Notes under the pieces: generated by a model
What the model saw: the letters and a program-made list of their open reading frames with translations, nothing else
What the model was told of the DNA's origin: nothing
Database searches by the model: none
Part shown: positions 23,244 through 31,264 of the stretch, piece by piece
How the letters are laid out: each line of letters opens with the position of its first letter
How positions within the stretch are numbered: position 1 is the first letter of the stretch
Program-made: the position numbers and the translations under genes
Source of the DNA: Gammaproteobacteria bacterium
GTDB lineage: Bacteria; Pseudomonadota; Gammaproteobacteria; Eutrophobiales; Eutrophobiaceae
Assembly: GCA_004297165.1 (NCBI GenBank)
Contig: SCUJ01000008.1
Coordinates: 372,001 to 436,000, forward strand
Direction: 5' to 3'
DNA: 64,000 nt

Positions 23244-26048
23244 ATGAACGCCGCACTCAAGACATTCTCGTTCTTAGTTGGTCGTCTGCACATCCAGGTC
23301 GCACTTTTCGCCATCCTGTTCTGCATGAGCGCCTGTGGCCAGAAACTTGACCCGGAGACTTATCTACAACGCGCAAAGGAACATATCGCCGCCGCCCGGT
23401 ACGCCGAAGGCATCATCGAACTCAAGAACGCCCTTCAGGGCGATGCCGACCTGGCCGAGGCCCGCTGGCTGCTCGGGGATCTCTATCTCAAGACTGGCGA
23501 CGGCGCCGCCGCTCAAAAGGAACTGGAGCGCGCCAGGGAATTGGGTTACGCCGAACCGGATATGGATCTCGCCATCTTGCGCAGCCTGCTCTTGCAGGAG
23601 GATTATACGGAGGTGTTGTTGCGGGTGCCGGACGTGGACGATGCCAATGCCACGGCCGATCTCCTGTCCATACGTGGCGAGGCCAGACTCGGTCAGGGCA
23701 AACCGGATGAGGCCGCGAAGTCCTTTACGAAGGCGCTCGAACTGGAACCGGATTCTGTCAATGCCTTACTGGGCAACGCGCGTCTCGCCATCGGCAGAGG
23801 GGCATTCGATGAGGCAACGGCGCACCTTGACCATCTCGAACAAATCGCCCCGGATCGTATCGAACTGGGCTTGTCCAGAGGCGCGCTTGGCCTTGCCCGC
23901 AATGACCCTGCAGCCGCCGAGGCTGGATACCGTCAGGCGCTCGCGATCGATGCAACGCATCCGGTGGCGCGACTTGGCCTGGCCCGCGCCCTGCTGGCGC
24001 AAAACCGCATCGACGAGGCCGCGACCCTTATCGATTCAATCAACCAGCAATACCCGAACAACCCCGCGGGCAGTTTTCTGCTCGGGGTACTGGAACTCCA
24101 GCGAGGCAACCGGCAACCGGCCAAGGACGCCCTGTTGCAGGTTATCAAGGCCGACCCCGGACATCTCCAGGCCCTGATTACCCTGGCCTCGATTTATTTT
24201 GAGGATGGGCAACTGGAGCAGGCCCAATCCCATATCAAGATGTTCCAGGTGACCATACCGGATTATCTGCCCGCGCAGAAACTGGCCTCCGCCATCAGCA
24301 TGCGCATCGGCAATGTCGATGAAGCCATCGGCGACCTCGAGGCCGTTATCGATCAGGCCAGCAACGATCCCCAGTTTTATTCCATGCTGGGCAGCGCCTA
24401 TATGAGCAAGGGCAACATGGAAAAAGGCATCGCTTACCTCACCCAGGCCGCGGAACTTGCGCCGGATCAGGCCTCGATCAAGACCCAATTGGCCATGGGC
24501 AAACTCAGTGGCGGCGATATCGAACAGGCCATCGAGGACCTGGAATCGGCCGTGGAACTCGACCCGGAGATGTTGCAAGCGGAGATCCTGTTGATCGCCG
24601 TCAATCTGCAAAAGGGTGACTTTGCCAAGGCGCTCGAACAGGCAACGGCCTCGGTGACAAAACATCCGGACAACCCTGTCTACCACAATCTGGCGGGCGC
24701 CGCGCACCTCGGCCTGAAGAACAACGTCAAGGCCTTGGAATTTTTCAATAAAGCCATCGAATTGGACGCCAAATTCACCCCGGCGATGATCAATCTGGCC
24801 TTGCTGGATCTGCAAAACGACGCCAAAGATTCGGCCAAGCAGAAATTCGAGCAGGTACTGGCCATTAATGAAAACAACATCCAGGCCCTGGTGGGACTCG
24901 CGCGACTGGCGCAATCCGGCAACGATATGGAGACCCTCGCGCGGCATCTGGAAAAGGCGCGCCTGAATAACAAACTCGCCCTGGAACCCCGCCTCATGCT
25001 CGCAAATTATCACTTGCGAAGAGGCGATAGCGCCAAGGCCCTGGAGGTTGCCAGAGAAGCCGGCGACATCGCTCCGGAACGCGCACAGGTGCTGGATGTT
25101 CTGGGACAGGCGGAGCAGGCGGCCGGTAATTATTCTGAAGCAATCGCTCAATTCGCCAAGCTGAGCGCCCAGGCGCCCAATAATGCCGATGTGTTGTATC
25201 GCCTCGCGCTGGCCCAGGCCTCGGCGGGCGATACCGCCGAGGCCGCAGCGTCGCTGGGCAAGGCTGGCGAGATCGATCCCGATAATCCCATGGTCCTGAT
25301 CGCCCGGACAACTCTCGCGCTGCGCGAGGGTAGGCATGACGAGGCCCTAGGTTATGCCGGCGCGCTCAAAGAAAAACAACCCAAATCCCCCGAGGGCTAC
25401 GCGCTGGAGGGCGATGTCTATCTTGCCAAGGATAAACTCGACGAAGCGGTCCGCGCCTATGAGAAGGCTTACAGCGTACAGAGGACCAGCCTGTTGACTA
25501 TCAAGCTGCACGGGGCCTATCGCGCTGCCGGAAAAAGAGACGACGCCATCAATATCGTCGAACAATGGTTGAAGGACAATCCGGATGACCCGGGGGCGAA
25601 ATCCGTGCTCGCGGGAAGCTATCTCCAAGAGGGCGATAATGCAAACGCCAAGCGCTTGTACAACGAAGTGTTGCAGAAATACCCGGATCATATCCTCTCA
25701 TTGAATAATCTGGCCTGGCTTATGCATGAGGAAGGCAACCCCGATGCGCTCAAGCTTGCGGAACGCGCCTACCAGATGAATCCCGACCTCGCAAATGTGA
25801 CCGACACTTATGCCTGGATCCTCATCGAGTCGGATCAACTCGAACAGGGTCTCACCCTCCTGCGCAAGGTCATTGATAAAGGGGTTAAAGACCCGAGCAT
25901 CCGTTACCACTACGCCACGGGCCTCTCCCGCTCCGGTGACCGGCTCCGCGCCATCAGCGAACTCGAATCCCTCCTCGCGGGGGGGGCGCCCTTTGCCGAG
26001 CGCGCAGCCGCGCAAAAATTACTGGAAGATATCAGCGGCGGACGGTAA
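23244..26048 (+). CDS. PrsT-type TPR-repeat lipoprotein (PEP-CTERM/exosortase-associated)
   Basis: Exported TPR lipoprotein of about 934 aa. A signal peptide with lipobox ends FCMSACGQ, and the mature N-terminus KLDPETYLQRAKEHIAAARYAEGIIELKNALQGDADLAEARWLLGDLYLKTGD is characteristic of PrsT. TPR-like repeats (A.LDLE.A..L.P.) then run to the C-terminus, roughly 20 units. Start at ATG 23244 with AGGA eight bases upstream; the frame continues further upstream through tRNA-Glu and is rejected there. In other bacteria PrsT is encoded near exosortase and exopolysaccharide genes of the XrtA/PEP-CTERM system. None is visible here, so this is an orphan member. Role is probably in assembly of exported polymer or protein; unproven. 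Confidence 0.85.
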   Translation: MNAALKTFSFLVGRLHIQVALFAILFCMSACGQKLDPETYLQRAKEHIAAARYAEGIIELKNALQGDADLAEARWLLGDLYLKTGDGAAAQKELERARELGYAEPDMDLAILRSLLLQEDYTEVLLRVPDVDDANATADLLSIRGEARLGQGKPDEAAKSFTKALELEPDSVNALLGNARLAIGRGAFDEATAHLDHLEQIAPDRIELGLSRGALGLARNDPAAAEAGYRQALAIDATHPVARLGLARALLAQNRIDEAATLIDSINQQYPNNPAGSFLLGVLELQRGNRQPAKDALLQVIKADPGHLQALITLASIYFEDGQLEQAQSHIKMFQVTIPDYLPAQKLASAISMRIGNVDEAIGDLEAVIDQASNDPQFYSMLGSAYMSKGNMEKGIAYLTQAAELAPDQASIKTQLAMGKLSGGDIEQAIEDLESAVELDPEMLQAEILLIAVNLQKGDFAKALEQATASVTKHPDNPVYHNLAGAAHLGLKNNVKALEFFNKAIELDAKFTPAMINLALLDLQNDAKDSAKQKFEQVLAINENNIQALVGLARLAQSGNDMETLARHLEKARLNNKLALEPRLMLANYHLRRGDSAKALEVAREAGDIAPERAQVLDVLGQAEQAAGNYSEAIAQFAKLSAQAPNNADVLYRLALAQASAGDTAEAAASLGKAGEIDPDNPMVLIARTTLALREGRHDEALGYAGALKEKQPKSPEGYALEGDVYLAKDKLDEAVRAYEKAYSVQRTSLLTIKLHGAYRAAGKRDDAINIVEQWLKDNPDDPGAKSVLAGSYLQEGDNANAKRLYNEVLQKYPDHILSLNNLAWLMHEEGNPDALKLAERAYQMNPDLANVTDTYAWILIESDQLEQGLTLLRKVIDKGVKDPSIRYHYATGLSRSGDRLRAISELESLLAGGAPFAERAAAQKLLEDISGGR

Positions 26049-26395
26049 TTACCCTTAATCAAACGTCAGATCGGACGGCCGGCAAACTGGTTGTTTATTG
26101 ATAAAAATCAATATGGAACCGTACTCTTTCTGTTTCCATTGACGTGACTGGTTGTACGTCCGGGGGCATTCAAAGCCTTACCGGTAACCCCTGTGTTGAC
26201 CAGAGATGCAACACGGGACCGTACAGTTTCCATTTGCGTGATTCGCTTATCATACCCGGCTGACTGAAACTGCCAGGCACGATAACGACTGCGCCTAAGC
26301 CCGCGCAACCTGGACATTTCGCGGTTATTGCCACATTCGGAGATTGAGAATGTGTCTATAGCCGTCGACGACAGTTATACTTGATATTGAAATGG
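26049..26395 (+). other. Upstream region of the giant oxidoreductase, with direct repeat and hairpin
   Basis: About 347 bp with no gene. It holds an imperfect direct repeat: copy 1 at 26115-26151 (GGAACCGTAC ... TTTCCATTGACGTGACTGG) and copy 2 at 26215-26245 (GGGACCGTAC ... TTTCCATTTGCGTGATTCG). Between them is a hairpin at 26190-26217 with 9-bp arms CCTGTGTTG/CAACACGGG and a 10-nt loop. There is no T run, so it is not a plain terminator. The layout could serve a regulator or leader RNA for the following gene, or be the remains of a mobile palindrome. Confidence 0.45.
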
Positions 26396-29300
26396 ATGCG
26401 GACCTACAACCCGCTTCTATTTCGTGAATCGGGCCGCCGATTGGCCGCCGAACACATCCGTAACCAGATAGGGTATAAAGAGATGCCACGTGGAGAATTT
26501 GGAATTGTAAAACTGCTGGGGCAAGACACGCTGTCCACGAGATCGCTGATCGTTGGCGGATATCTGAAATCCTATCTTGGCGAGCAGGGCCGGCAACTGC
26601 TGCACCATGACCTCGGCAAAAAGCTCTGGAAGCTGAAACCCGGATGGGAAAAGGCGGATCTCGCCCTCGTCAGCCATCAGGATTCGGGACAGACCCTGGG
26701 CATCGTTGCCGAATATGCCGACGGCACCTTCGTGCTGCTCAGCGAGTACGCTGAAGGCGCGCCGGAAAGGCTCAATGGCCTTACCAACATGTATCTAACG
26801 GAAGAGGCAAAACATCCCTATCATCGCGGCCAATGGGGCTGGGAAGACGTGACCCCCGGCGCGGTCATCCGCGAGCAGTTCACGGCGAAACAGAACATCA
26901 CCGGACTCTGGGCCAAGGAAGTCGCGGTCATCGACGCCGACAAATGCAATGCCTGTCAGCAATGCGGGATCTGGTGCCCGGAAGACGCGATTAAACTCGA
27001 TCCCATCACCGGCAAACTGGACATCGTCGATTACGACTTCTGCAAGGGTTGCGGCATCTGCGATTTCGTCTGCCCGCCGGAGCAGAAGGCCATCAAAATG
27101 GTGGAGGAGAGCAAGGTCAAGGCCGCCCAGGCCAACGTCTTTCACGGCATTTACGCCAAACGCCTGGAAATCAGGGGCGACTACATCCGCCACGAAGTGG
27201 AAAAGATCTCCAGTCTGCCGCAACCGGAATATCAGGTGATCTACCAGGATGACTCCGGTAAGCAGTCCCTGTCCGGCAAACGCCTGATCCAGATCAAACA
27301 CACCCCCAAGGACCTCAAGGGCGCACAACGTCCGTTTCTGTATACCTACAGCAGCAGCGACGGCCGCCATTGGGAAAAACTCGTCCGGCCCATGACCAAC
27401 ATCCTGGTTTATGGCGCGAGCGAGTTCGACAAGGAATTCGCCGCCAACATGCAACTGGAAGGCTTCGCGATCAAGGTGCTGCCGTCGCAGAAGAGCGGCA
27501 ACTACAACAAGGAACTCCAGTCCTTCAACCGGGCAGGTCTCGCGCTCGGCGCGGGCGCCGGCATCGAGCAGGTGGTCTCCAATGCGGACGCCGCCATCGA
27601 CGCGGTGGTCAGCGCGCATTATGAGAATTTCGACACCGCGCTGGACAAGCTGATCATGGACAAGATCGGCGTTTTGCGCGCGCCTTTCCTGCCAACCACG
27701 ACTCGTGACAGCCACCTGGAAGAGATCATCGCCAACCTCGAGGCCAAAATGACGCGGCCGGAAGTAAAGAAGGACGATCGTCCGCTGGCGCTGCTGAAAC
27801 AACAATGTGGTGACATCAGTTCGGGTCATCGCCTGTGCACCGGTTGCGTGGTGGGCACCGCATTCAATCTGGCCGTACGCACCATGAAAGACCTGGATCC
27901 GGATTTCGTCGCCGTTCACAGCGGCGCCACGGGTTGCGCCGAGGTGGCGACCACGGTCTATCCGGACACCTCCTGGCCAAGCTTCCTGCACACCACCTTC
28001 GGCGGCCTCGGGGCGAATCTCGAGGGACTGAACGCCGCCTATCGTTTTCTCGTCAAGACCGGCCGCATGAAAAAGAAGATCAAATTCTTCGGCTGGGCGG
28101 GCGACGGCGGCACGTACGATATCGGCTTGCAGGCCCTGAGCGGGCTGCTGGAACGCGGCCTTGCCACCGATGCCGTGTACTTCTGCTACGACAACGGCGC
28201 CTACATGAACACCGGCATCCAGCGCTCCAGCGCGACGCCGATGGGTTCCGCCACCTCGACCTCTCCGGTCGGCGAGGTCGTCCACGGCAAACCCCAGTTC
28301 CGGAAGGACCTGGAACACATCGCCGGGGCGCATCGCGGAACCTATGTGGCCAGGGTGTCGCCGTCCCATCAGATCGACTTCATCAACAAATTGAAGAAGG
28401 CGATTATGCATGACGGCCCGGCGCTCATCATAACCTATGCCAACTGCACCACGGGCCATAGGACGGACACCAACCTTACGGCCGATCAATCGAGCCTCGC
28501 GGTGGAAAGCGGTTTCTGGCCGCTGTTCGAAATCGACAACGGCGAGACCCGTCTCAGCAAACCCTATCCGAAGGCTTATGACTCCCGCACCAAACCAGAG
28601 GATCGGGTCTCGCTGATCAACTGGATACAGAGCGAAGGCCGCTTCGCCATGCACTTCGACAAGCAGGGCAATTTCACGTCGCGGCAGCAGGAGATCGAAT
28701 TCCGCATGGCCGAGCGCCAACTGCTGGCGGACTGGCGCCAATTACAAGCGGAAGATCGCCTCACGCAGAAGAAAGACAAGCTGATGGAAGAACTCACCGC
28801 CTATCTGCGGGATAACAACCAGAAGCGCCTGCGCGACCTGACCACCAAGCCGCATCTGTTCGGTCTGGGCGGCTACACCCAGAATTATCTCGAAGAACTC
28901 TCCTGGATGGACGATTCGGGCAATCCCAAACCCTTCCTCAAACAGGTGCTGCGGCAGGTCCGGCTCAAGATCGATCCGGACGAATATAAGGCCAAGGATC
29001 CAGAACTGGGCGAAAAGCTTTACCAGGTGTTCATCGAGGAATTCGAGACCCTGGCGCTCGACATGCAGTCCCTGCGCAAGGAACAGATCGCCAAGGCCGC
29101 CAACGCGGCCCGTGCGGAACTCACCATCAAGCAGGCCTCCGATGGACATCTCGATATGCCCGCCGCGGAAAAACAGAAAAATCGCGCGGTCATCGGCGGG
29201 CAACCGATCGCCGGACGGATCTTTGCACGCGCCGGAGACGGCGGCGTTACCGCGGCCAAGATGTTCGCGGGCGTGTTGCAGGCCATCGGCCTGTTCGGCA

Positions 29301-31264
29301 AGGCCGCCCCGGATTACGGTCCCGAACGCCGGGGCGCGCCGGTGGGCACCAACTTCACCATCAGCGGCAAGGAGATGCGCACTCAGGCCAGTTTCTCGGA
29401 CCTCAATATCAGTATTGTCATCAACCCGGAAGACGCCGGCTGGAAGATCTCCCAGTGGCGCGATGCCGTGGTCAGCGGTGGTGTGATCATCATCAACACC
29501 CATCGTTCTCCTCAGGATACGCGCCGCCGTTACGAGATCCCGGATTCGGTGGCGGTGGTCACCACCGATGCGGTGGCCCTGCGGCGCTCGCACAAGGTCC
29601 CGGAGACGGTCACCCTGACGGCCGGGATGCTGAAATTCCTGGTGGGCCGCGGCATCGAGGCGCCCGAAGAGTACGTGACCCAGAAGCTGAAAAAGATCCT
29701 GACCAAGGAATTCGCCGACAAGGCGAACGCCGACAAGATCGTGAAGGGGAATCTGGACGCCTTCTTCAGCACTTACAAAAATGCCCAGCTTTCGGAATCC
29801 ACGACTGCCCCCAAGGTGGATCGCAACGGTATCGGCACAACCGGTTTCGATAGGAACCCGCCGGAGCAATTGTTTACCGGTTCCGAGGCCGTGGCCGAGG
29901 TCTGGCGCCAGATCAATCCCGGCGTCTTCGCCATGTTCCCGATTACCCCCAGCACGGAGGTTGGTCAGACCTTCTCCAACTTCTGGGCGGATGGCAAGGT
30001 GGATACAGAGTTCGTGCACACCGAATCGGAACATTCTTCGTTCATGGTCGTCATCGCCGCGCAGGCGGCCGGGGTGCGGGCAGTCACCTCCACCGCCTCG
30101 CAGGGCATGCTGCTCGGCAAGGAAGGCGGGCCGCTCACGGCCACACTGCGCCTCCCCGTGGTCGTCAATGTGGGCGCGCGCGAGGTCAACGCCCCGCTAA
30201 GCATCCATGCGGGCCATGCCGACTTTTATCAGTTTCGCGACGACGGCTGGTTGCATTTCCTCCCCCGCAATGCCCAGGAGGCCTACGACTTCGCCATCAT
30301 CGCGCAAAAGTCGGCGGAGAAGGCCCTGCTGCCTGCGTTCATCAATCAGGACGGCTTCATCGTCACGCACACCAAGGACATGCTGGACCTTCTGTCAGAC
30401 GAACAGGTCCAGACCTTCGTCGGCGAGTACGACCCCGATTACAGCATCCTCAAGACCGGGGGCACGTACAATCCGATCTCCCTGCAGGACTACTACTCGG
30501 AACACGTCCGCAACTTCGCGGAGGCGCAGAAACACGCCGCCGCCGCGATCGACGAGACCTTCAAGGAATTCGCGGCCTTGAGCGGACGCAGCTATGGCCG
30601 GACCAACGCCTACCAGACAGCGGACGCCGACGTGGTCGTCGTCGCCATGGGTTCCACTGAAGGCGCCGCCATGGACGCGACGGATGATCTGCGCGCGGCA
30701 GGCCAACGCGCAGGCGTCCTTGCAATCAAGGTTTACCGGCCCTTCCCGGTCGAAGAGATCCGCCAAGCGCTGGCGCATGCGCGGACCGTCATTGTGCTCG
30801 ACAGGGCAAATTCGCAAGGCACCGAGCTGGCACCGCTGGCCACGGAGGTGCAATCCGCCATCAATCGCCGGGTCCTGTCGCTGGAATACGGTCGCGGCGG
30901 CCGCAATACCCCGCTGGCCCTGGTCAAGGAGATCTACCAACTCGGTTTTCTGCTCAACCGGGACGTGGACAGCGATCAGGCCGCGAAGTCACTGGGACAT
31001 CCCGATGGGGAACTTTGCGCCCTGCTCGGCGAGTTGCATGCGCTGGAAGGCCAGGACTTCCTCGACCGGTTCAAACAGCATCTTATCGCCGGCCGGTTGA
31101 TCGATGCCTTCGGCCCGAAGGAACACATCGACGTTAGGGAAACCCAGAAGCGGCGCGCCATCAAGCTGCGGATCGTCGAACTGATCGTCATGCAAGAAGC
31201 CGAGGGCAAACCGGGGAAACGCGCCCGCAAGACGAAAGAGAAGGATCTGGAGGTATTGCACTGA
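26396..31264 (+). CDS. Giant single-chain 2-oxoacid:acceptor (pyruvate:ferredoxin-type) oxidoreductase, delta-beta-gamma-alpha order
   Basis: About 1622 aa carrying every PFOR/OFOR subunit in one chain. N-terminal unassigned part about 1-170. Delta two-[4Fe-4S] ferredoxin about 175-235: CNACQQCGIWCP from Cys184 and CKGCGICDFVCP from Cys216. Beta TPP domain about 465-760: cluster Cys481, Cys484, probably Cys514 and Cys684; TPP motif GDGG at 569 and DNGAYMNTG at 599. Gamma about 925-1115: RAGDGGVTAAK and YGPERRGAPVG. Alpha about 1155-1580: MFPITPSTEVG, EHSSFMV, LDRANSQGTE. It should oxidatively decarboxylate a 2-oxoacid to acyl-CoA with ferredoxin as acceptor. NifJ has alpha-gamma-delta-beta order, so this layout is permuted. 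Substrate unknown. Start uncertain: ATG 26396, TTG 26381 or ATG 26483. Confidence 0.92.
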   Translation: MRTYNPLLFRESGRRLAAEHIRNQIGYKEMPRGEFGIVKLLGQDTLSTRSLIVGGYLKSYLGEQGRQLLHHDLGKKLWKLKPGWEKADLALVSHQDSGQTLGIVAEYADGTFVLLSEYAEGAPERLNGLTNMYLTEEAKHPYHRGQWGWEDVTPGAVIREQFTAKQNITGLWAKEVAVIDADKCNACQQCGIWCPEDAIKLDPITGKLDIVDYDFCKGCGICDFVCPPEQKAIKMVEESKVKAAQANVFHGIYAKRLEIRGDYIRHEVEKISSLPQPEYQVIYQDDSGKQSLSGKRLIQIKHTPKDLKGAQRPFLYTYSSSDGRHWEKLVRPMTNILVYGASEFDKEFAANMQLEGFAIKVLPSQKSGNYNKELQSFNRAGLALGAGAGIEQVVSNADAAIDAVVSAHYENFDTALDKLIMDKIGVLRAPFLPTTTRDSHLEEIIANLEAKMTRPEVKKDDRPLALLKQQCGDISSGHRLCTGCVVGTAFNLAVRTMKDLDPDFVAVHSGATGCAEVATTVYPDTSWPSFLHTTFGGLGANLEGLNAAYRFLVKTGRMKKKIKFFGWAGDGGTYDIGLQALSGLLERGLATDAVYFCYDNGAYMNTGIQRSSATPMGSATSTSPVGEVVHGKPQFRKDLEHIAGAHRGTYVARVSPSHQIDFINKLKKAIMHDGPALIITYANCTTGHRTDTNLTADQSSLAVESGFWPLFEIDNGETRLSKPYPKAYDSRTKPEDRVSLINWIQSEGRFAMHFDKQGNFTSRQQEIEFRMAERQLLADWRQLQAEDRLTQKKDKLMEELTAYLRDNNQKRLRDLTTKPHLFGLGGYTQNYLEELSWMDDSGNPKPFLKQVLRQVRLKIDPDEYKAKDPELGEKLYQVFIEEFETLALDMQSLRKEQIAKAANAARAELTIKQASDGHLDMPAAEKQKNRAVIGGQPIAGRIFARAGDGGVTAAKMFAGVLQAIGLFGKAAPDYGPERRGAPVGTNFTISGKEMRTQASFSDLNISIVINPEDAGWKISQWRDAVVSGGVIIINTHRSPQDTRRRYEIPDSVAVVTTDAVALRRSHKVPETVTLTAGMLKFLVGRGIEAPEEYVTQKLKKILTKEFADKANADKIVKGNLDAFFSTYKNAQLSESTTAPKVDRNGIGTTGFDRNPPEQLFTGSEAVAEVWRQINPGVFAMFPITPSTEVGQTFSNFWADGKVDTEFVHTESEHSSFMVVIAAQAAGVRAVTSTASQGMLLGKEGGPLTATLRLPVVVNVGAREVNAPLSIHAGHADFYQFRDDGWLHFLPRNAQEAYDFAIIAQKSAEKALLPAFINQDGFIVTHTKDMLDLLSDEQVQTFVGEYDPDYSILKTGGTYNPISLQDYYSEHVRNFAEAQKHAAAAIDETFKEFAALSGRSYGRTNAYQTADADVVVVAMGSTEGAAMDATDDLRAAGQRAGVLAIKVYRPFPVEEIRQALAHARTVIVLDRANSQGTELAPLATEVQSAINRRVLSLEYGRGGRNTPLALVKEIYQLGFLLNRDVDSDQAAKSLGHPDGELCALLGELHALEGQDFLDRFKQHLIAGRLIDAFGPKEHIDVRETQKRRAIKLRIVELIVMQEAEGKPGKRARKTKEKDLEVLH

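Follow-up and report, generated by a model that had tools for sequence, protein, structure and literature searches.

We show that a gammaproteobacterial gene carries the modules of a four-subunit 2-oxoacid:ferredoxin oxidoreductase (OFOR) on a single chain in the order delta-beta-gamma-alpha. Pyruvate:ferredoxin oxidoreductase (PFOR), a well-known enzyme, is sensitive to oxygen and converts pyruvate to acetyl-CoA and back; in our judgement the fused gene is likely to encode a functional, CoA-dependent enzyme of this kind, of the PorA/PorB type, acting as a homodimer under the control of an FNR-type regulator.

Reading frame, module order and extra blocks

The window, by which we mean the whole 64,000-nucleotide stretch that was analysed, contains an uninterrupted forward-strand reading frame that extends from a first start codon at 26381 to 31264 (window ORF listing). 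The first-pass annotation had described one frame of about 1622 codons beginning at 26396. The single frame stands, and the protein most likely starts at the ATG at 26483, giving 1593 aa, since in the only full relative that we found the frame upstream of the equivalent ATG is closed by in-frame stops. This relative belongs to a second genome of the genus (Gammaproteobacteria bacterium RIFCSPLOWO2_02_FULL_56_15, contig MGYR01000154.1); the two genomes are closely conserved from ATG CCA CGT GGA GA onward, and the preceding DNA has diverged. The gene and its parts are as follows.

26483..31264, + strand: whole gene, predicted single-chain 2-oxoacid (pyruvate):ferredoxin oxidoreductase, 1593 aa (from the reading frame, the domains and the start set by the homolog)
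26483..26836, + strand: N-terminal extra block of 118 aa, residues 1-118, no domain match
26837..27112, + strand: delta module, residues 119-210 (TIGR02179 match; PorD alignment)
27113..27814, + strand: delta-beta block, residues 211-444, 234 aa, no domain match
27815..28744, + strand: beta (TPP) module, residues 445-754 (TPP_enzyme_C, PorB, 9bt4_C, alignment)
28745..29215, + strand: charged beta-gamma insert, residues 755-911, no domain match
29216..29770, + strand: gamma module, residues 912-1096 (PF01558, 1.4e-15; alignment)
29771..29872, + strand: short gamma-alpha linker, residues 1097-1130, 34 aa, least conserved segment (68%)
29873..30562, + strand: alpha domain I (POR_N), residues 1131-1360 (PF01855, 4e-52)
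30563..30940, + strand: alpha domain II (PFOR_II), residues 1361-1486 (PF17147, 1e-21)
30941..31261, + strand: charged C-terminal tail, residues 1487-1593, 107 aa, no match

The proposal that delta (two [4Fe-4S] clusters), beta (TPP and a [4Fe-4S] cluster), gamma and alpha follow one another in this order is borne out by an ordered search with Pfam and NCBIfam, and the order differs from the alpha-gamma-delta-beta arrangement common in NifJ. Numbered from 26396 (residue numbers of the parts count from 26483), the matches are PorD/Fer4_21 at 160-238, TPP_enzyme_C/PorB at 474-767, POR (gamma) at 941-1125, POR_N at 1171-1388 and PFOR_II at 1411-1504. PF01855, PF17147, PF01558 and PF02775, which correspond to the alpha I, alpha II, gamma and beta modules of the OFOR superfamily, each score above their cut-offs. 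The delta module exceeds the cut-off of TIGR02179 (69.7 bits against 60.05) and carries two 4Fe-4S motifs, CNACQQCGIWCP and CKGCGICDFVCP; the beta module matches PDB 9bt4_C at E=7e-51 and ends near residue 754 by alignment with PorB; and the gamma module contains the loop ARAGDGGVTAAK. The cluster and TPP motifs are intact, as had been noted at the outset: all eight delta cysteines are present (155, 158, 161, 165, 187, 190, 193 and 197), and the four of the beta cluster (C452, C455, C485 and C655), which complete the set of twelve, align with PorB together with the TPP motif GDGGTYDIG.

The rest of the chain consists of extra blocks of 118, 234, 157, 34 and 107 residues, about 650 aa or roughly 41% of the protein. 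The N-terminal block had been put at about 170 residues and is shorter, about 118 aa, because delta begins near residue 119, where WGWEDVTPGA... aligns with INWKEITPGG... of free-standing PorD. The estimate of about 160 residues between beta and gamma agrees with the 157 found; the 234-aa delta-beta block, the largest of all, and the 107-aa tail had been overlooked. Searches against Pfam, PDB profiles and the genomes of the phylum returned no relative of the N-terminal and internal blocks, and the tail has no Pfam match in the window sequence and a sub-threshold match to PanZ (E 0.006) in the relative. Duplication of modules was considered as a source of the blocks and rejected, as profile comparison among them and against the four modules gave nothing. 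The structure prediction that had been proposed for the N-terminus was run on residues 1-444, as well as on 739-1593, with AlphaFold and two-row alignments; pLDDT was about 32-34 and the models were left out of fold searches. The beta-gamma insert is helical only in such a low-confidence model.

Conservation, distribution and setting of the gene

The relative's frame, 1597 aa long, is intact, lies in the same neighbourhood and shows 84% identity across 1593 aligned residues, 74% in residues 1-125 and about 88% in the beta-gamma insert. By two-sequence NG86, with dS near or above 1 and values that are therefore rough, dN/dS is 0.086 overall, 0.04-0.06 in delta, beta and alpha I, and 0.05 in the delta-beta block, 0.07 in the beta-gamma insert, 0.15 in the tail and 0.23 in the N-terminal block; the gamma-alpha linker gave no usable value. 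Every segment with a computable value is thus under purifying selection, and since the values of the extra blocks are low too, these are selected sequence rather than filler. Selection and the frame and neighbourhood shared with a second genome also show that the frame is neither a chance occurrence nor an assembly error.

Both genomes share the gene order TPR protein, fused gene, DUF992 and LptF/LptG-type permeases, and no metabolic or redox gene adjoins the fused gene at the locus. The large TPR-repeat protein lies directly upstream (window 23256-26048) and is kept in the relative. The fused gene occurs in 2 of 53 genomes of the order, both of the same genus, and full-length matches numbered zero among the other 368 genomes sampled from the class, the other 397 sampled from the phylum and 48 genomes of a neighbouring class; a second class-level sample comprised largely the same genomes as the first and added little coverage. 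Short exact peptides, searched for across about 85,000 species, recovered the one relative only, although distant relatives would escape such a scan; a scan of viral contigs recovered none, and among the matches listed for plasmid and phage records there were ordinary OFORs only, at 28-41% identity. As far as searched, the gene is so far restricted to one uncultured genus.

Two elements lie upstream of the gene, in its long leader.

26098..26111, no strand assigned: FNR-like palindrome TTGATAAAAATCAA; the relative has TTGATAAAAGTCAA at the aligned position
26192..26214, + strand: 23-base leader block TGTGTTGACCAGAGATGCAACAC, containing an inverted repeat and conserved in the relative

By sequence, TTGATAAAAATCAA is a perfect FNR-type palindrome, and its conservation suggests that the gene is probably expressed at low oxygen through an FNR-type regulator. 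The leader block is present as a single copy in its own genome, matches no Rfam family and shows no excess of folding over shuffled sequences in either genome.

The 3.5-Mb source genome has nine OFOR alpha matches, eight besides the fused gene, and curated models class the paralogs as indolepyruvate-type IorA, several KorA/OAFO and PorA/PadG-like subunits. One paralog (locus L018) adjoins genes recognised by eye as benzoyl-CoA reductase-like subunits, and another alpha match lies near a gene that by eye resembles aldehyde:ferredoxin oxidoreductase. The number of alpha matches, together with such neighbours, suggests a ferredoxin-rich anaerobic metabolism in the source organism. Elsewhere in this genome (contig C13, about 1383870-1389297; L019:11870-17297), an RnfB-like gene is followed by one for a PFOR-like protein of 1539 aa in which, by eye, the PITPS motif is missing. 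Its Pfam matches comprise partial POR_N, PFOR_II and 4Fe-4S domains and no TPP domain, and in the alpha tree its alpha part groups with a NifJ-like protein of a Gemmatirosa plasmid. This protein has the look of a PFOR relative that has lost catalysis and is linked to an electron carrier of the RnfB type.

Substrate, proposed mechanism and alternatives

The best curated models are PorA for alpha (314.5 bits, below its cut-off of 550) and PorB for beta, no equivalog cut-off being reached for alpha, beta or gamma (NCBIfam). The other alpha models score lower (VorA 186.6, PadG 182.7 and oxalate oxidoreductase alpha 156.9 bits), and the closest solved relatives are subunits of the pyruvate:ferredoxin oxidoreductase 9bt4. 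Of the module phylogenies that had been suggested, the one for alpha places the fused pair in a clade (100/99) that also includes NifJ and the PorA proteins of Peptoclostridium, G199 and Sulfurovum, and sets it apart (98/99) from the KorA/OAFO-like (2-oxoglutarate-type) paralogs in its own genome; resolution in the beta tree is too poor to tell whether alpha and beta share a source. The stem branch of the pair is long in both (1.41 in the alpha and 1.34 in the beta tree), and such strong divergence makes the transfer of a substrate from relatives uncertain. At the residue level, the fused protein retains the residues known to contact pyruvate in Desulfovibrio PFOR. Glu64, a functional residue of the Desulfovibrio africanus enzyme (DaPFOR), is matched by E1183. 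The equivalents of Thr31, Arg114 and Leu121 are T1155, R1233 and L1239 in alpha, and those of Asn996 and Ile843 are N576 and, conservatively, V488 in beta, all of them positions with described roles in DaPFOR (PMC5020499). The pyruvate-specific set of Thr31, Arg114, Ile843 and Asn996 is thus represented throughout. The earlier idea of a link to pyruvate metabolism or CO2 fixation gains support in its first half, from the alpha tree and the Thr31, Glu64, Arg114 and Asn996 equivalents; its second half is not supported by these data and stays speculative, the gene having no metabolic neighbours.

The solved members of the family suggest, by analogy, a homodimer of two chains. In it, TPP would lie between beta and alpha domain I, and pyruvate would be decarboxylated there, a direction that, like the substrate and the oligomeric state, we infer. 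CoA would be bound by the gamma module; electrons would pass from TPP to the beta cluster, on to the two delta clusters and out to an external ferredoxin. As for the extra blocks, their most likely role would be to hold the re-ordered modules together and to steady the dimer. In DaPFOR, the domain VII arm reaches over the other subunit. Since the beta-gamma insert occupies the matching position behind the beta module, it may reasonably be guessed to clamp the dimer.

Several observations weigh against pyruvate: alpha has AGHAD in place of its relatives' (G/C)DHxD, the usual Asp of the GDH/CDH motif being Gly, the curated cut-offs are not reached, and the locus lacks metabolic neighbours. With eight further OFOR alpha matches in the genome, pyruvate might also be handled elsewhere. 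A single-chain OFOR for another 2-oxoacid, whether branched-chain, aryl (phenylglyoxylate-like) or of the oxalate type, would fit the departure of AGHAD from the usual motif, the matches to the VorA, PadG and oxalate models and the benzoyl-CoA reductase-like genes beside one paralog. We nevertheless hold such a substrate to be unlikely: those models fall far under PorA, the paralogs closest to PadG and VorA (C13 140k and C13 371k) lie outside the PorA/NifJ alpha clade, and Asn576 and Val488 are of the pyruvate type (PMC5020499). Far less credible still is the idea that the gene is decaying or redundant and has persisted by chance. The many paralogs would allow for redundancy, but dN/dS is about 0.09 overall and low in every computable segment, the catalytic residues are all intact, and so are frame and neighbourhood in two genomes.

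The delta module, from which electrons would exit, has a conserved extra block on either side (118 and 234 aa). This arrangement would suit a permuted OFOR in which the N-terminal or the delta-beta block binds a dedicated or unusual acceptor that replaces ordinary ferredoxin. We consider that improbable, as the blocks contain 2 cysteines in about 650 residues and neither a redox-cofactor domain nor a cluster cysteine motif, and no redox gene adjoins; the unusual electron carrier envisaged in the first-pass annotation finds no backing in these data. A somewhat less doubtful, still speculative idea is that the flanking blocks make up a new module serving as electron outlet or in regulation, for instance by shielding the clusters from oxygen or docking a particular partner, in which case the permuted order would have a function of its own.

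Comparison with known systems

The OFOR superfamily is ancient, its members distribute one set of modules over one to five subunits, and its history is traced by fusion order. NifJ has the order alpha-gamma-delta-beta, with domains I to VII (PMC8945911, PMC5020499). The fused protein shares with NifJ and the homodimeric PFORs of Desulfovibrio africanus and Moorella the single chain, the four modules, three [4Fe-4S] clusters, TPP and the conserved pyruvate residues. It departs from their alpha-gamma-(IV)-delta-beta-(VII) order, lacks domain IV and a recognised domain VII, has about 650 extra residues, is about 30% identical in alpha, and scores 214.9 bits against the NifJ family TIGR02176, short of the cut-off of 911. 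The four-subunit enzymes of Peptoclostridium, G199 and PDB 9bt4 come closest in sequence, with 41-42% identity in alpha and 45-46% in beta, and have the same module set with PorA/PorB-type alpha and beta; in contrast to the one frame described here, they consist of separate subunits, in the operon order gamma-delta-alpha-beta, and lack the extra blocks.

Two-subunit Sulfolobus enzymes have a III-I-II (gamma-alpha) chain and carry domain VI (beta) on a second chain (PMC5020499). Gamma precedes alpha on one chain in these OFOR/KOR enzymes (Sulfolobus, KorAB) as in the fused protein; they have no delta domain (PMC5020499), and the fused protein's alpha groups elsewhere. Descent of the gamma-alpha part from the KorA/OAFO family is supported neither by the alpha tree nor by TIGR03710, the two-subunit gamma-alpha model (116.9 bits, cut-off 482.75). 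Since alpha belongs to the PorA/NifJ clade, apart from the 2-oxoglutarate-type paralogs, the adjacency of gamma and alpha probably arose by independent fusion. The simplest reading would thus be an independent fusion of a four-subunit POR, neither a permuted NifJ nor an extended Sulfolobus-type chain.

Other arrangements came up in passing. Many gammaproteobacteria (L037-L050) have OFOR clusters ordered gamma-alpha-beta-(about 1.6 kb)-delta, with an extra gene between beta and delta, and Monoglobus has an apparent alpha-beta fusion. The archaeal fusions described in the parts of PMC11237513 that were consulted (PorA-PorB, KorA-KorC and KorB-KorC) are partial, joining two subunits only within the same superfamily, and those parts contain no four-module chain in the order delta-beta-gamma-alpha; nor did we find a report of this order in the open-access literature, which omits most subscription journals. 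The fused protein's module order is unlike that of any known type checked, and we regard the protein as a true member of a known superfamily that is permuted, single-chain and confined to one lineage. As the chain was apparently built without descent from NifJ or from the gamma-alpha enzymes, the quaternary structure seems to tolerate more than one way of connecting the modules, and nature here offers a test of the connections and linkers that are required for the catalytic dimer.
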